Assembly: GCF_000377645.1 (NCBI RefSeq)
Contig: NZ_KB898474.1
Span: 1-64,000, forward strand
Length of the DNA stretch: 64,000 nucleotides
Reading direction: 5' to 3'
From: Thiomonas sp. FB-6
GTDB taxonomy: Bacteria > Pseudomonadota > Gammaproteobacteria > Burkholderiales > Burkholderiaceae_C
Shown here: positions 21,283 to 33,170 of the stretch, one piece after another
How the letters are laid out: every line of letters starts with the position of its first letter
Position numbering within the stretch: the first letter of the stretch is position 1
Made by a program: the position numbers and the translations under genes
Notes under the pieces: model-generated
Told to the model about the DNA's origin: nothing
Seen by the model: the letters and a program-made list of their open reading frames with translations, nothing else
Database searches by the model: none

Positions 21283-22062
21283 TCACTGGATGTCGAAGCG
21301 AAACTCCTGGGTCACCGTGACGGCCCGCGTGCCCTGATCGCTGCAGCGGTAGTCCAGCATGGCGCGCCTGACGGCGGCACGGAACACCGAGGGGCCGGAG
21401 ACGATGGTCACGCTTCGCACATGGCCGTGCTGCACCACGGCACGCGCCAGCACGGTGCCGCCCATGCCTTGTTCGATCGCCAGGTCCGGAATGCGCGGGC
21501 GCCTTTGCTGCGGGCAGAGCAGGCCCACGCTGGGGGGCGCGGAGGCGGGCATTTCGGCGCCCCGGGCCATGGATGGCGGCGTTGGGGTTGTCGGTGCCGG
21601 TGCCCGGGCCGGCCCAGGCGCGCTTGCGCGATCCGCCCGGGGCAGCGGCGCCGAGACCGCCGCAGCGGAGGCCGCCACGGGCAACGCGCGGGGTCGGGCT
21701 CGCGGCGCAGGTGGCGGCGGCGCGGCAGGTGTCGAATGCCGGAGCGCGTCAGCCCGGCGAGGGTGACGCGGTGGCGCGGGCGGCCGCCGGGCCGCCGGCA
21801 CCGGCGCGGGCCGGGCGGACTGTTCGACGCGCTGCGGCACCAGGCGTGGGGCCGGCTCGGGCGGCGGCGCCGGCGCCGTCAGGATGGACAGAACCATCTC
21901 CGGCGGCAACCGTGGCGTCCGCTCCGGCATGCACAGTCCGCGCCCCAGTGCACACAGCAAGCCCAGGTGCAGCACAAGCACGCACACCAAGGCCAGCGCG
22001 CGCCGCGGCAGCGCATCGGCGAGGTACGGCGCTTCGCGGGCCGCGGGCGCAGCGGGGTGCAT
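21283..22062 (-). CDS. tonB: TonB family energy transducer
   Basis: The 259-residue product has an N-terminal membrane anchor (ALALVCVLVLHLGLLCALG, about residues 22-42) and a long Pro/Ala/Arg-rich periplasmic stretch. The C-terminal TonB domain (IPDLAIEQGMGGTVLARAVV, FRAAVRRAMLDYRC, VTQEFRFDI) contacts TonB boxes of outer-membrane receptors. Its ATG overlaps the TGA of the preceding exbD. It is last in the minus-strand run that starts at the aldehyde dehydrogenase. Confidence 0.85.
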   Translation of the reverse strand: MHPAAPAAREAPYLADALPRRALALVCVLVLHLGLLCALGRGLCMPERTPRLPPEMVLSILTAPAPPPEPAPRLVPQRVEQSARPAPVPAARRPPAPPRHPRRADALRHSTPAAPPPPAPRARPRALPVAASAAAVSAPLPRADRASAPGPARAPAPTTPTPPSMARGAEMPASAPPSVGLLCPQQRRPRIPDLAIEQGMGGTVLARAVVQHGHVRSVTIVSGPSVFRAAVRRAMLDYRCSDQGTRAVTVTQEFRFDIQ

Positions 22063-22496
22063 CAGCGCTCTCCATGGGCCGCCTGGACGATGCCCATGCG
22101 AGTCACACCCTCGCGCCGGGCCGTGACCAGTACGCGAGCGAAGGTGTCGTAGCTCGCGCGCGGATCCGGATGCAGGTCGAGCTGCGCCGGAGGATCCTCG
22201 GCCGCCGCGGCGTGCAGCAGCCCGCGCAGGCTCCGATCGGAGCTCACGGGAACGCCGTTCCAGCGCAGGAGCTGGCCCGGTCCGATGCTCAGGTCGACGA
22301 TCCGCGAAGACCTCGGCGCGGCCGGCGCATCGTGCGGCATGCGCAGTACGACCGAGCCGAGTCGGATCGGGATGGTGACGATGAGCATGATCAGCAGCAC
22401 CAGCATCACGTCGATCAGCGGCGTGGTGTTGATCTGCGGGCTCGCCACGTCGTCCTGGCGAGCCTCGCGGCGCATGCGTCGGAGCCTTGACTTCAT
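22062..22496 (-). CDS. exbD: ExbD/TolR-type proton channel subunit (second)
   Basis: The 144-residue product has a single N-terminal helix with the conserved Asp in PQINTTPLIDVMLVLLIMLI, followed by a small periplasmic domain (LDLHPDPRASYDTFARVLVT). It overlaps the first exbD by 4 bases. ExbB with two different ExbD proteins is a known variant of TonB energisers. Confidence 0.9.
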   Translation of the reverse strand: MKSRLRRMRREARQDDVASPQINTTPLIDVMLVLLIMLIVTIPIRLGSVVLRMPHDAPAAPRSSRIVDLSIGPGQLLRWNGVPVSSDRSLRGLLHAAAAEDPPAQLDLHPDPRASYDTFARVLVTARREGVTRMGIVQAAHGER

Positions 22497-22918
22497 GGCG
22501 TCGCGGTCCGGGTCCGGGTGAGAAAGCCCAGGCTGGTGATGCCGGCTTGCCGGCACGCGTCGACCACCCGGCCGACGGGGGCGTAGCTTGCCGCGCGGTC
22601 CGCGCTGATCTGCACGCGAGCCTGCGGCTTGCGCGCGGCCAGCGCGCGCAGGCGCAGGCGCATCTGGGCGCCGCCGGCCAGCGCTGTGCCGTTCCAGGCC
22701 ATGCGGCCGTCGCGGGTGATGGTGATGACCACGTCGGCGGCTGCGGGCCGGGGCGACGCCTGCTGGCGCGGCAGGTCCACGCGGGTGGGATGGCGGATCA
22801 CCGGAACGGTGATCAGGAAAATGATCAGCAGCACCAGCATCACGTCGACCAGCGGCGTGGTGTCGATGCCGGACAGCGCCTGCTGCGCGTCCGCGGGGTC
22901 GGGCAGGTGCAGGGCCAT
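22493..22918 (-). CDS. exbD: ExbD/TolR-type proton channel subunit (first)
   Basis: The 141-residue product has the helix SGIDTTPLVDVMLVLLIIFL with the conserved Asp and a periplasmic domain with VQISADRAASYAPVGRVVDA. It lies 6 bases after exbB. It is clearly distinct in sequence from the second copy, so this is not a recent duplication. Confidence 0.9.
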   Translation of the reverse strand: MALHLPDPADAQQALSGIDTTPLVDVMLVLLIIFLITVPVIRHPTRVDLPRQQASPRPAAADVVITITRDGRMAWNGTALAGGAQMRLRLRALAARKPQARVQISADRAASYAPVGRVVDACRQAGITSLGFLTRTRTATP

Positions 22919-22924
22919 CGTGGC

Positions 22925-31118: not shown

Positions 31119-31240
31119 CGTTGTCTCCTGTTCAGCGAGTCGTTGGGCTTGTTGTCGGCTGTGTCCAGCCAGTCGTCCTGGGTACTGCGTGGGAAGTCAT
31201 CGGGGCGGTGGTCGTCTCCTGGTCGTTGCGTCGAAGGGGC

Positions 31241-31633
31241 TCAGACGCGGCCGGCGAGCTGCAGCGCCCGCCATTCGGCGTCGTCGTACAGGCGCGAACG
31301 AGTCAGGAAGCGCCGGCCCGTGGGCCCGTCCAGCGAGAACATGCCGCCGCGCCCGCCGACCACGTCGATGATCAGCTGGGTGTGTTTCCAGTACTCGAAC
31401 TGCGCGGCGCTGATGTAGAAGGGCATGCCGCCGATGTGCCCGAGCAGGCGGTCGGCCTCGCCGACCAGGAACTCGCCCGCGGCGAAGCACATCGGCGCGC
31501 TGCCGTCGCAGCAGCCACCCGATTGGTGGAACATCAGCTCGCCATGCTCGGCCCGCAGGCGCTCGATCAGCTCCAGGGTCGCCGGCGTGGCCGTCACCTG
31601 CGGGGGCGGGGCATGGTTCAAGGTCGTCTCCAC
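31241..31633 (-). CDS. DUF779 protein
   Basis: The 130-residue product has the conserved MFHQSGGCCDGSAPMCFAAG block with a Cys pair, GEADRLLGHIGGMPFYISAA, and a YWKHTQLIIDVVGGRGGMFS core ending in GRRFLTRSRLY. DUF779 genes are typically found beside aldehyde dehydrogenases of alcohol-oxidation operons; the role is not established. It starts 16 bases after the aldehyde dehydrogenase stop. Confidence 0.9.
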   Translation of the reverse strand: METTLNHAPPPQVTATPATLELIERLRAEHGELMFHQSGGCCDGSAPMCFAAGEFLVGEADRLLGHIGGMPFYISAAQFEYWKHTQLIIDVVGGRGGMFSLDGPTGRRFLTRSRLYDDAEWRALQLAGRV

Positions 31634-31649
31634 CGATCGGCCGCCGGCT

Positions 31650-33170
31650 TCAGAAGAAGCCCAGCTTGCTTTCGCTGTAGCTGACCAGCAGGTTCTTGGT
31701 CTGCTGGTAGTGGTCGAGCATCATCTTGTGGGTCTCGCGTCCGATGCCCGACTGCTTGTAGCCGCCGAAGGCCGCGTGCGCGGGATAGGCGTGATAGCAG
31801 TTGGTCCACACGCGCCCGGCCTGGATCGCGCGTCCCATGCGGAACGCGGTGTTCATGTCGCGGGTCCACACCCCGGCGCCCAGGCCGTACAGGGTGTCGT
31901 TGGCGATCTCCAGCGCCTCGGCCTCGTCCTTGAAGGTCGTCACCGACACGACCGGGCCGAAGATCTCCTCCTGGAAGATGCGCATCTTGTTGTGGCCCAG
32001 GAACACCGTGGGCTGCACGTAGTAGCCGCCGGCGAGCTCTCCAGCATGCTCGCCGCGCGCGCCCCCGGCGAGCACCTTCGCGCCTTCCTGGCGGCCGATG
32101 TCGAGATAGGACAGGATCTTCTCCATCTGCTCGCTGCTGGCCTGCGCGCCGATCATGGTCTGCGGGTCGAGCGGGTTGCCCTGCTTGATGGCCGCCACGC
32201 GCTGGAGCACACGTTCCATGAAGCGGTCGTAGATCGACTCCTGCACCAAGGCGCGCGAGGGACAGGTGCAGACCTCGCCCTGGTTGAGCGCGAACATCAC
32301 GAAGCCCTCGACCGCCTTGTCGAGGAAGGAGTCGTCACGCGCCATCACGTCGTCGAAGAACACGTTGGGCGACTTGCCGCCCAGTTCCAGGGTCACCGGG
32401 ATGATGTTCTGGGCGGCGTACTGCATGATCAGGCGCCCGGTGGTGGTCTCGCCGGTGAAGGCGATCTTGGCGATGCGCTTGTTCGACGCAAGCGGCTTGC
32501 CGGCCTCCAGCCCGAAGCCGTTGACCACGTTGAGGACCCCCGGCGGCAGCAGGTCCTCGATCATCTCCATCAGCACCAGGATGCTCACCGGCGTCTGTTC
32601 GGCCGGCTTGAGCACCACGCAGTTGCCCGCGGCCAGCGCCGGCGCGATCTTCCACGTTGCCATCAGGATGGGGAAGTTCCAGGGAATGATCTGGCCGACC
32701 ACGCCCAGCGGCTCGTGGAAGTGGTAGGCGTAGGTCTCGTGGTCGATCTCGGCCACCGATCCCTCCTGGGCGCGGATGCACCCGGCGAAATAGCGAAAGT
32801 GGTCGATGGCCAGCGGAATGTCGGCCGCGGTGGTCTCGCGGATGGGCTTGCCGTTGTCCCAGGTCTCCGCCGCTGCCAGCGTGGCCAGGTTGGCCTGCAT
32901 GCGGTCGGCGATGCGGTTGAGGATCCCGGCGCGATCGGCCGGCGAGGTGCGGCCCCAGGCCTGCTTGGCCGCGTGGGCGGCGTCGAGCGCTCGCTCGACG
33001 TCCTCGGCATTGGAGCGGGGCACCTCGCAGAAGACCTTGCCCGTCACCGGGGTGACGTTCTCGAAGTACTGACCGCTGGCGGGCTCCACCCACTTGCCGC
33101 CGATGAAGTTTCCGTAACGTCGCTTGAACGCCACGGGGCTGCCGAATTTGCCCGGTTCGAGCATGTCCAT
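31650..33170 (-). CDS. NAD-dependent aldehyde dehydrogenase (ExaC/AcoD-like)
   Basis: The 506-residue product is a full-length [24 protein letters not shown] contains the catalytic Asn165; [15 protein letters not shown] is the NAD-binding turn; [12 protein letters not shown] gives the general base Glu262; [11 protein letters not shown] gives the nucleophile Cys301. The length and overall sequence fit the acetaldehyde/aldehyde dehydrogenases that finish alcohol oxidation (ExaC, AcoD). It is the first gene behind the sigma-54 promoter and acts in the cytoplasm on the aldehyde made in the periplasm. Confidence 0.92.

Follow-up and report, generated by a model that had tools for sequence, protein, structure and literature searches.

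A predicted PQQ-salvage and lanthanide-type alcohol-oxidation operon in Thiomonas sp. FB-6

The use of pyrroloquinoline quinone (PQQ) without its synthesis is common among bacteria, and the coupling of PQQ import to PQQ use is an open question. PQQ is imported by the receptor PqqU, and PQQ biosynthesis is encoded in 23% of the genomes that carry it; linkage of PqqU to pqq genes is rare (four Burkholderiales genomes), and the available text of the same study reports no linkage to a dehydrogenase or a TonB set (PMC12124388). LutH-like receptors are broadly distributed among methane oxidisers (PMC12482762), the outer-membrane lanthanide route in ped/exa alcohol-oxidation systems is called unresolved (PMC12997753), and the main text, as available, of a study of ocean lanthanide use and receptors names neither PqqU nor LutH (PMC11996626). 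Here we describe a ten-gene run in a 64,000-nucleotide stretch of Thiomonas sp. FB-6 (assembly GCF_000377645.1, contig NZ_KB898474.1, positions 1 to 64,000), hereafter the window, which is part of contig 4 of a 4.20 Mb draft genome of 79 contigs that is 99.71% complete. No description of an operon of this kind was found among the titles and abstract openings listed by searches of open-access text.

The run is probably a PQQ-salvage and lanthanide-type alcohol-oxidation operon, a function predicted from its genes. The gene order, a PqqU signature in one of two TonB-dependent receptors, a lanthanide-type aspartate in the alcohol dehydrogenase, a fusion of a binding protein to a cytochrome and a sigma-54-like promoter site were observed in the sequence, and pqqC and pqqE were not found in the genome. 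On recomputation all ten open frames proved real: they follow one another on the minus strand between 33170 and 21283, head to tail and without internal stops, as a sequence-only reading of this DNA had described. Its family assignments also held, and we could add that the aldehyde dehydrogenase exceeds the ExaC equivalog cut-off and that the last gene is TonB by profile alone. In gene order the junctions were 16, 122, 70, -4, 3, 73, 6, -4 and -1 bases (negative values are overlaps), in agreement with eight of the nine spacings given earlier; the gap between the DUF779 gene and the dehydrogenase is 122 bases and not 107. The features are as follows.

33346..35487, plus strand: sigma-54 activator (GAF, AAA+ and Fis-type helix-turn-helix domain matches), divergent from the run
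33376..33400, no strand: perfect inverted repeat found by pattern match, candidate activator binding site
33245..33259, minus strand: sigma-54 -24/-12-like promoter element (pattern TGGCACGNNNCCTGM)
31650..33170, minus strand: acetaldehyde dehydrogenase, ExaC type (NF050026, 975 bits)
31241..31633, minus strand: DUF779 protein (PF05610)
29409..31118, minus strand: PQQ alcohol dehydrogenase with lanthanide-type aspartate, WDYDGVN (TIGR03075, 541 bits)
28202..29338, minus strand: periplasmic binding-protein domain (weakly MxaJ-like) fused to a cytochrome c domain
25932..28205, minus strand: TonB-dependent receptor A, from a family associated with PQQ producers; lanthanide chelate proposed as ligand
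23799..25928, minus strand: TonB-dependent receptor B, PqqU-type predicted PQQ importer (NF041535; PDB 9c4o/6v81; signature residues)
22925..23725, minus strand: ExbB proton-channel subunit (PF01618)
22493..22918, minus strand: ExbD, first copy (PF02472)
22062..22496, minus strand: ExbD, second copy (PF02472)
21283..22062, minus strand: TonB-like protein, diverged from Pfam TonB_C (profile match to solved TonB)

Receptor B is, as judged from its sequence, a PqqU-type PQQ importer. It aligned to the solved E. coli PqqU (PDB 9c4o/6v81) over residues 46-706 with E ~1e-116. PqqU is defined by an aromatic residue at position 99 together with R304 and R365 in E. coli numbering, with a change of Y99 to F permitted; in the available text 11 of 12 residue names match 6v81 at precursor numbering, and one residue is named both N447 and N477, of which N477 fits 6v81 (PMC12124388). 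The signature is present in receptor B as F122, R322 and R381. Residues Q84, Q121, K274, R304, Q308, R365, Y481 and R536 of PqqU are identical, Y99 is F, and the PqqU-site residues did not vary among 12 sequences from the genus. At position 274, where E has been tied to possible metal co-transport (PMC12124388), receptor B has K. All 19 aligned PqqU-type sequences passed the signature (those of the window and G005, eight near receptor A relatives and nine of 20 fetched PqqU stretches), while all nine comparison receptors failed it, a set that includes four relatives of receptor A and one crude translation of a whole stretch. The ligand had earlier been given as "lanthanide chelate or PQQ"; for receptor B the published signature points to PQQ, and for receptor A a metal is probable but unproven. 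The PqqU of congeners G005, G010 and G013 (L191, L192, L194), which lies away from the run, matched that of the window at 68-71%, and the PqqU located after the fusion in other congeners, for example G008 and G021, was less similar (58-65%); receptor B may derive from the former lineage.

The host of the window appears unable to make PQQ. We did not find pqqC in its genome, using a search that exceeded its cut-off in 7 of the 27 other congeners; pqqE was likewise not over its cut-off there and was over it in the same 7 of 28 genomes, and pqqA, pqqB and pqqD were not searched for in the window genome. A single PQQ dehydrogenase match was observed, giving the profile of a PQQ non-producer: a near-complete genome with a PQQ enzyme and neither pqqC nor pqqE. 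Orthologs of the dehydrogenase were observed in 15 other congeners at 75-90% identity (some partial), making 16 of 28 genomes with the window's, and orthologs of the fusion in the same 16. The gene pqqC was found in 7 of these 16 and in none of the other 12, and a PqqU-type receptor in 15 of the 16 (fragments counted) and in none of the 12, counts that, like those for the order below, are not corrected for shared ancestry. PqqU was full or nearly full in 12 of the 16, frame-disrupted in G022, and a fragment in G001 and weak fragments in G024, both at contig ends; no PqqU was seen in the dehydrogenase-bearing G006. Among the nine dehydrogenase-bearing genomes negative for pqqC, window included, a trace of PqqU was present in eight, that of G024 being the weak fragments. 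We also considered PqqU as a marker of non-producers, which fails in the genus because five pqq-positive congeners carry an intact PqqU; what survives is that PqqU tracks the dehydrogenase.

A recent change was captured in one pair of closely related species of the genus. Compared with G022 (L187), about 3.7 kb are missing in G021 (L188, contig 132): the break takes L187 from 8000 to 11671, with 26 bases between in G021, and runs from within pqqE past the pqqB side, so that the missing segment holds, in G022, pqqA-D (by position) and the start of pqqE. The leftover pqqE piece in G021 was matched in two frames, and PqqU and the dehydrogenase of G021 are intact. This gap indicates that the genus has lost PQQ biosynthesis at least once without losing the operon, and the pair provides a natural comparison for a recent loss of pqq in which the salvage genes persisted. 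The reciprocal pattern (pqq lost and PqqU kept in G021; pqq kept and PqqU and receptor A disrupted in G022) was not used, because each of the four disruptions in G022 is the loss of one base within or beside a G/C run, in a genome of ~6 contigs, a pattern compatible with long-read error.

The enzymes of the run fall in well-defined families. The aldehyde dehydrogenase scored 975 bits with the ExaC equivalog NF050026 (cut-off 900), and the alcohol dehydrogenase 541 bits with the subfamily TIGR03075 (cut-off 480). The closest solved relative of the latter was the quinoprotein ethanol dehydrogenase 6zcw, which we take to be PedH, and its WDYDGVN aligned with WDFDGVN of 6zcw and WDFSGNN of 1flg. 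An additional aspartate two residues past the catalytic aspartate marks lanthanide-dependent PQQ alcohol dehydrogenases of the PedH/ExaF/XoxF type. The dehydrogenase carries this aspartate, in line with the lanthanide that had been named earlier as one option, and all 19 sequences tested, orthologs and near relatives, had the WDYDGVN motif.

The fusion has its binding-protein domain at the N-terminus and its cytochrome c domain at the C-terminus (~residues 275-351). The best match to a profile of the N-terminal part was MxaJ (9ism_B, E = 7e-4, 106 of 245 positions). The AlphaFold model showed a type II periplasmic binding-protein fold, with 16 of 21 ten-residue blocks above 85 over residues 21-230; the linker and a portion of the haem domain were modelled at low confidence. 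The top Foldseek matches of the model were amino-acid binding proteins (E ~1e-11), and neither MxaJ nor XoxJ was among the best 50 of 1479 matches. A Pfam search gave no SBP_bac_3 match in the window fusion; SBP_bac_3 was over the Pfam cut-off in the fusions of G340 and G331 (described below) and just below it in that of Burkholderia multivorans. A scan of named genomes with two cytochrome-domain patterns returned 73 loci, which are no measure of distribution because the scan missed plasmid-borne Burkholderia relatives. Fifteen of these (L114-L128) matched the larger part of the fusion and L129 is fragmentary; most appear to be the congeners' own contigs, L123 and L129 belong to one metagenome-assembled genome (MAG) and L128 is MAG SZAS-46. 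The remaining 57 (L130-L186) matched mainly over the cytochrome domain, and a PQQ dehydrogenase match was observed in 40 of them. One, from a Nevskiaceae MAG (L131), encodes a protein of 423 aa in which a long N-terminal part accompanies the same cytochrome domain; a 54% dehydrogenase and a 39% activator lie beside it. Eight pattern matches were obtained in viral contigs, none of which encodes a relative of the fusion.

Sigma-54 control, also proposed earlier, agrees with what precedes the first gene, namely a GAF/sigma-54 activator and a recurring -24/-12-like site, the arrangement expected of a sigma-54 operon. The divergent activator is presumably AcoR-like; its true start is uncertain, since relatives align from residues 5-12 onward, or from 55 in G020. 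The pattern TGGCACGNNNCCTGM had one match in the 64 kb (33245-33259, minus strand, ~75 bases upstream of the aldehyde dehydrogenase start) against 0.06 expected, an expectation that flatters the site because the pattern was picked after viewing it and the sites of relatives. The same pattern was found upstream of the aldehyde dehydrogenase gene in 6 of 7 loci tested, window included, with a variant in G020. G005 and G010 have it also between TonB and the dehydrogenase, and the tested regions of B. multivorans, Caballeronia and G331 gave no match. The consensus of the sigma-54 -12 element is GC. In five of the six upstream matches the -12 element reads CTGA, with a final A where the consensus has C. 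The inverted repeat at 33376-33400 is perfect, with 10-base arms and a 5-base spacer (one match against 0.01 expected, the pattern being chosen post hoc), and falls within the activator frame if the start is at 33346. A scan of 21000-33500 for sigma-70-type promoters gave 0 sites against 0.5 expected and is little informative.

The energising genes end the run. ExbB and the two ExbD proteins exceeded their Pfam cut-offs (106, 94.9 and 60.6 bits), and the last gene, which had no Pfam or NCBIfam match from the single sequence, matched solved TonB with a 5-row profile (E = 6.4e-7). The two ExbD copies (22062-22918, minus strand) are unlike each other and in tandem, and are paired also in G005, G010 and G018.

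The order of these genes varies among relatives. In five congeners (G005, G010, G013, G015, G016) neither the aldehyde dehydrogenase nor a receptor lies beside the dehydrogenase and fusion in the fetched stretch, the upstream side being cut by a contig end in G015 and G016 and just past TonB in G013; in five others (G008, G020, G021, G003, G022) the receptors are not followed by a TonB set within the fetched stretch. In G005 and G010, ExbB-ExbD-ExbD-TonB lies across the dehydrogenase, on its other side, and G013 has TonB before the dehydrogenase-fusion pair on one contig and receptor A-ExbB-ExbD on another. The order in G018 is aldehyde dehydrogenase-DUF779-dehydrogenase-fusion-PqqU-(gap)-ExbB-ExbD-ExbD; a different contig carries receptor A and, convergent to it, a fragment of TonB. 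Outside the genus, G340 (L301; another genus of the same family, 100% complete) has receptor A (35% identity to the window), dehydrogenase (39%, with WDYDGVN), fusion and PqqU (37%, signature kept) consecutively on one strand, and no match to pqqC. Its fusion of 387 aa has SBP_bac_3 and cytochrome c over the Pfam cut-offs and is marginal to the window fusion (27%, E = 0.008). In G331, from another family, 15 kb hold pqqE-C-B, the activator (41%), receptor A, ExbD- and ExbB-like genes, the dehydrogenase (69%) and the fusion (39%). The arrangements in G340, G331, G013 and G018 suggest that the same parts keep meeting in varied orders.

A version linked to PQQ synthesis was also observed. In Burkholderia multivorans (NZ_CP020399, 131759-151846) a GAF/sigma-54 activator (40%), a receptor A relative (36%) divergent to the dehydrogenase-fusion pair, the dehydrogenase (69%) and the fusion (38%) lie beside pqqABCDE, and in Caballeronia sp. 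M1242 a dehydrogenase (68%), fusion (37%) and aldehyde dehydrogenase (78%) have pqqA beside them. The fusion is annotated in these as "transporter substrate-binding domain-containing protein" or "c-type cytochrome", and no PqqU or TonB set was annotated or matched in either stretch. Beside the B. multivorans arrangement, the window looks like a salvage version.

Receptor A lacks the PqqU signature. It was observed in 13 of the 16 dehydrogenase-bearing genomes of the genus and in 1 of the other 12 (a partial gene in G025). In a survey of 300 genomes of the order, window's counted, with receptor A relatives taken at E <= 1e-60, receptor A was present in at least 42 genomes and PqqU in at least 97, both lower bounds because a maximum of three candidates per genome was scored. 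The gene pqqC was over its cut-off in 38 of the 42 genomes with receptor A and in 20 of the 258 others, compared with 34 of the 97 with PqqU and 24 of the 203 others; by genus, 21 of the 25 genera with receptor A include a genome that carries both receptor A and pqqC. Four genomes have receptor A but no pqqC: the window's, G190 and G340, which have PqqU, and G143, which does not. We fetched 40 stretches around receptor A, covering 42 of the 44 places outside the window. Pqq genes were observed in 10, PqqU in 8 (6 as immediate convergent neighbours) and a PQQ dehydrogenase match in 7; 17 of the 40 held at least one of these and 23 none. Among the fetched PqqU stretches (20 of ~100 places) 1 of 20 had pqq genes, a rough comparison given that stretch lengths differ. 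In Sphingobium a receptor A relative lies within a ped-like cluster. The six convergent pairs (L303, L304, L306, L307, L309, L311) come from three other families of the order, with pqq genes within ~10 kb of the pair in L303, L304, L307, L309 and L311; read by eye, L304 and L309 also hold an apparent histidine kinase-response regulator pair and a peptidase. Again by eye, receptor A in L226 (G026, contig 393) is beside apparent periplasmic uptake [NiFe] hydrogenase genes. A lanthanide chelate is the most likely ligand of receptor A in our estimation, held with a little less than even confidence.

Taken together, these observations suggest the following route. The sigma-54 activator, perhaps answering to an alcohol or aldehyde, would turn on the run; receptor B would take up external PQQ, receptor A would probably import a second need of the enzyme, possibly the lanthanide chelate, and the neighbouring ExbB-ExbD-ExbD-TonB set, by its adjacency, may energise both. 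XoxJ/MxaJ proteins have a proposed role in cofactor loading of the dehydrogenase (PMC12997753), and by analogy the binding-protein domain of the fusion would help insert PQQ and metal into the periplasmic apo-dehydrogenase. The dehydrogenase would then oxidise a primary alcohol, the cytochrome domain of the fusion accept the electrons and ExaC remove the aldehyde. The view of the sequence-only reading that the module takes up its own cofactor is thus right in substance for PQQ and plausible for a lanthanide, while a single transcript is a prediction. In a fuller version, which we put forward tentatively, one operon scavenges both halves of the lanthanide-quinoprotein site, PqqU supplying PQQ, receptor A the lanthanide, a private TonB motor the energy, and the fusion both loading cofactors and taking electrons; it would descend from or parallel the pqqABCDE-linked Burkholderia version, with synthesis swapped for salvage.

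Several observations weigh against the salvage-operon reading. The absence of pqqC and pqqE rests on a draft of 79 contigs, and the pqq-positive G005, G010, G013, G015 and G016 keep an intact PqqU away from the dehydrogenase of the run, that of G005, G010 and G015 lying ~2 kb from another PQQ dehydrogenase match. The exact ten-gene order was seen in 0 of the 15 other dehydrogenase-bearing congeners in the fetched stretches. Receptor A directly follows PqqU in four of these 15 (G008, G003, G021, G022), lies elsewhere in eight and was not found in three (G001, G006, G024); it has no solved relative at E <= 0.001. Its relative on an Ideonella plasmid adjoins a "nickel transporter" gene with no PQQ dehydrogenase gene beside it in the stretch, and relatives on a Methylocalor plasmid and in Caballeronia M1242 also have no such gene beside them in their stretches. 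That the TonB set serves receptors A and B is suggested by adjacency alone, and TonB_C matches occur at three further places in the window genome, one of them under the cut-off. Receptor B scored 493 bits with NF041535, under the PqqU naming cut-off of 1200, so we write PqqU-type and make no equivalog claim (the cut-off is a naming threshold, not a mechanism), and Q310 and N477 of PqqU are replaced by L and Y. Receptors in relatives without the dehydrogenase, named earlier as evidence against a unit, were seen outside the genus (PqqU in 97 and receptor A in 42 of the 300 genomes); within the genus such cases were nearly absent (0 of 12 and 1 of 12).

Some of these points would suit two units that became neighbours by chance, one an exaC-DUF779-alcohol-dehydrogenase operon and the other a TonB uptake operon unrelated to it. 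The exact order was seen in the window genome only, the TonB set and receptor A are sited elsewhere in several congeners, and the sigma-54-like site parts TonB from the dehydrogenase in G005 and G010. We nevertheless regard chance adjacency as quite unlikely, as both PqqU and receptor A track the dehydrogenase in the genus (15/16 vs 0/12 and 13/16 vs 1/12), ExbB-ExbD-ExbD-TonB flanks the dehydrogenase on its other side in G005 and G010, as TonB does in G013 with receptor A heading ExbB-ExbD on a separate contig, and the receptors of the window overlap their neighbours or sit 3 bases away.

Other alternatives concern the ligands. Both receptors could feed the dehydrogenase with receptor A taking a PQQ-related compound (a PQQ-metal complex, a precursor or a breakdown product) and not a lanthanide chelate, and the link of receptor A to pqqC, tighter than that of PqqU, speaks for this. 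It is unlikely, however, given that receptor A lacks the PqqU signature, that most of its carriers have pqqC and would need no second PQQ receptor, and that its position as immediate convergent neighbour of PqqU in six fetched stretches suggests a different ligand. A drift of receptor B to some other small aromatic carboxylate, with PQQ diffusing through porins, would account for the low NF041535 score and the replaced Q310 and N477, but the signature residues, together with K274 and R536, are conserved without exception in 12 of 12 genus sequences, and receptor B relatives occur near PQQ dehydrogenases in two different contexts, which makes such a drift very unlikely. If the salvage-operon reading is true, the operon is a single testable genetic unit for the coupling of PQQ import to use, would help predict which bacteria rely on PQQ donors, and adds a candidate for an outer-membrane lanthanide receptor beyond classical methylotrophs.

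The run is flanked by genes of other kinds. A Hydrogenase-4-like membrane complex (13947-21228, plus strand) ends convergently beside the TonB gene, with HyfB and HyfF over NCBIfam cut-offs, a HyfE-like subunit below, and NuoCD-like and NuoB-like subunits; it may be of the Ehr type without a [NiFe] site, since no CxxC was found in the translated large subunit. A glutaminase gene (35516-36430, minus strand) is convergent with the sigma-54 activator.

Each described system shares some parts with this locus. The likeness of receptor B to E. coli PqqU (YncD) consists of near full-length homology and the PQQ-site signature. The ped/exa clusters of Pseudomonas (PedH/PedE, PedF, PedG) share with the window a PQQ alcohol dehydrogenase, a cytochrome c550, a XoxJ-like binding protein and an aldehyde dehydrogenase, but have the binding protein and cytochrome as separate genes and two-component regulation in the text available (PMC12997753). 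In Methylacidiphilum, XoxG:J is, like the window fusion, a cytochrome c fused to a XoxJ-type binding protein beside a lanthanide dehydrogenase (PMC8498564, PMC6688271); there the cytochrome seems, from the name, to come first, whereas the window fusion begins with the binding domain and ends with the cytochrome. LutH and LanA are TonB receptors for lanthanide-dependent PQQ dehydrogenases (PMC7391723, PMC12482762), to which receptor A is likened by its proposed role. The novelty of the locus is the combination, in one run, of a salvage receptor, a second PQQ-linked receptor, an adjacent TonB motor, the fusion and the enzyme, in a host where pqqC and pqqE were not found: known parts newly combined, together with a receptor A family that has no assigned ligand.

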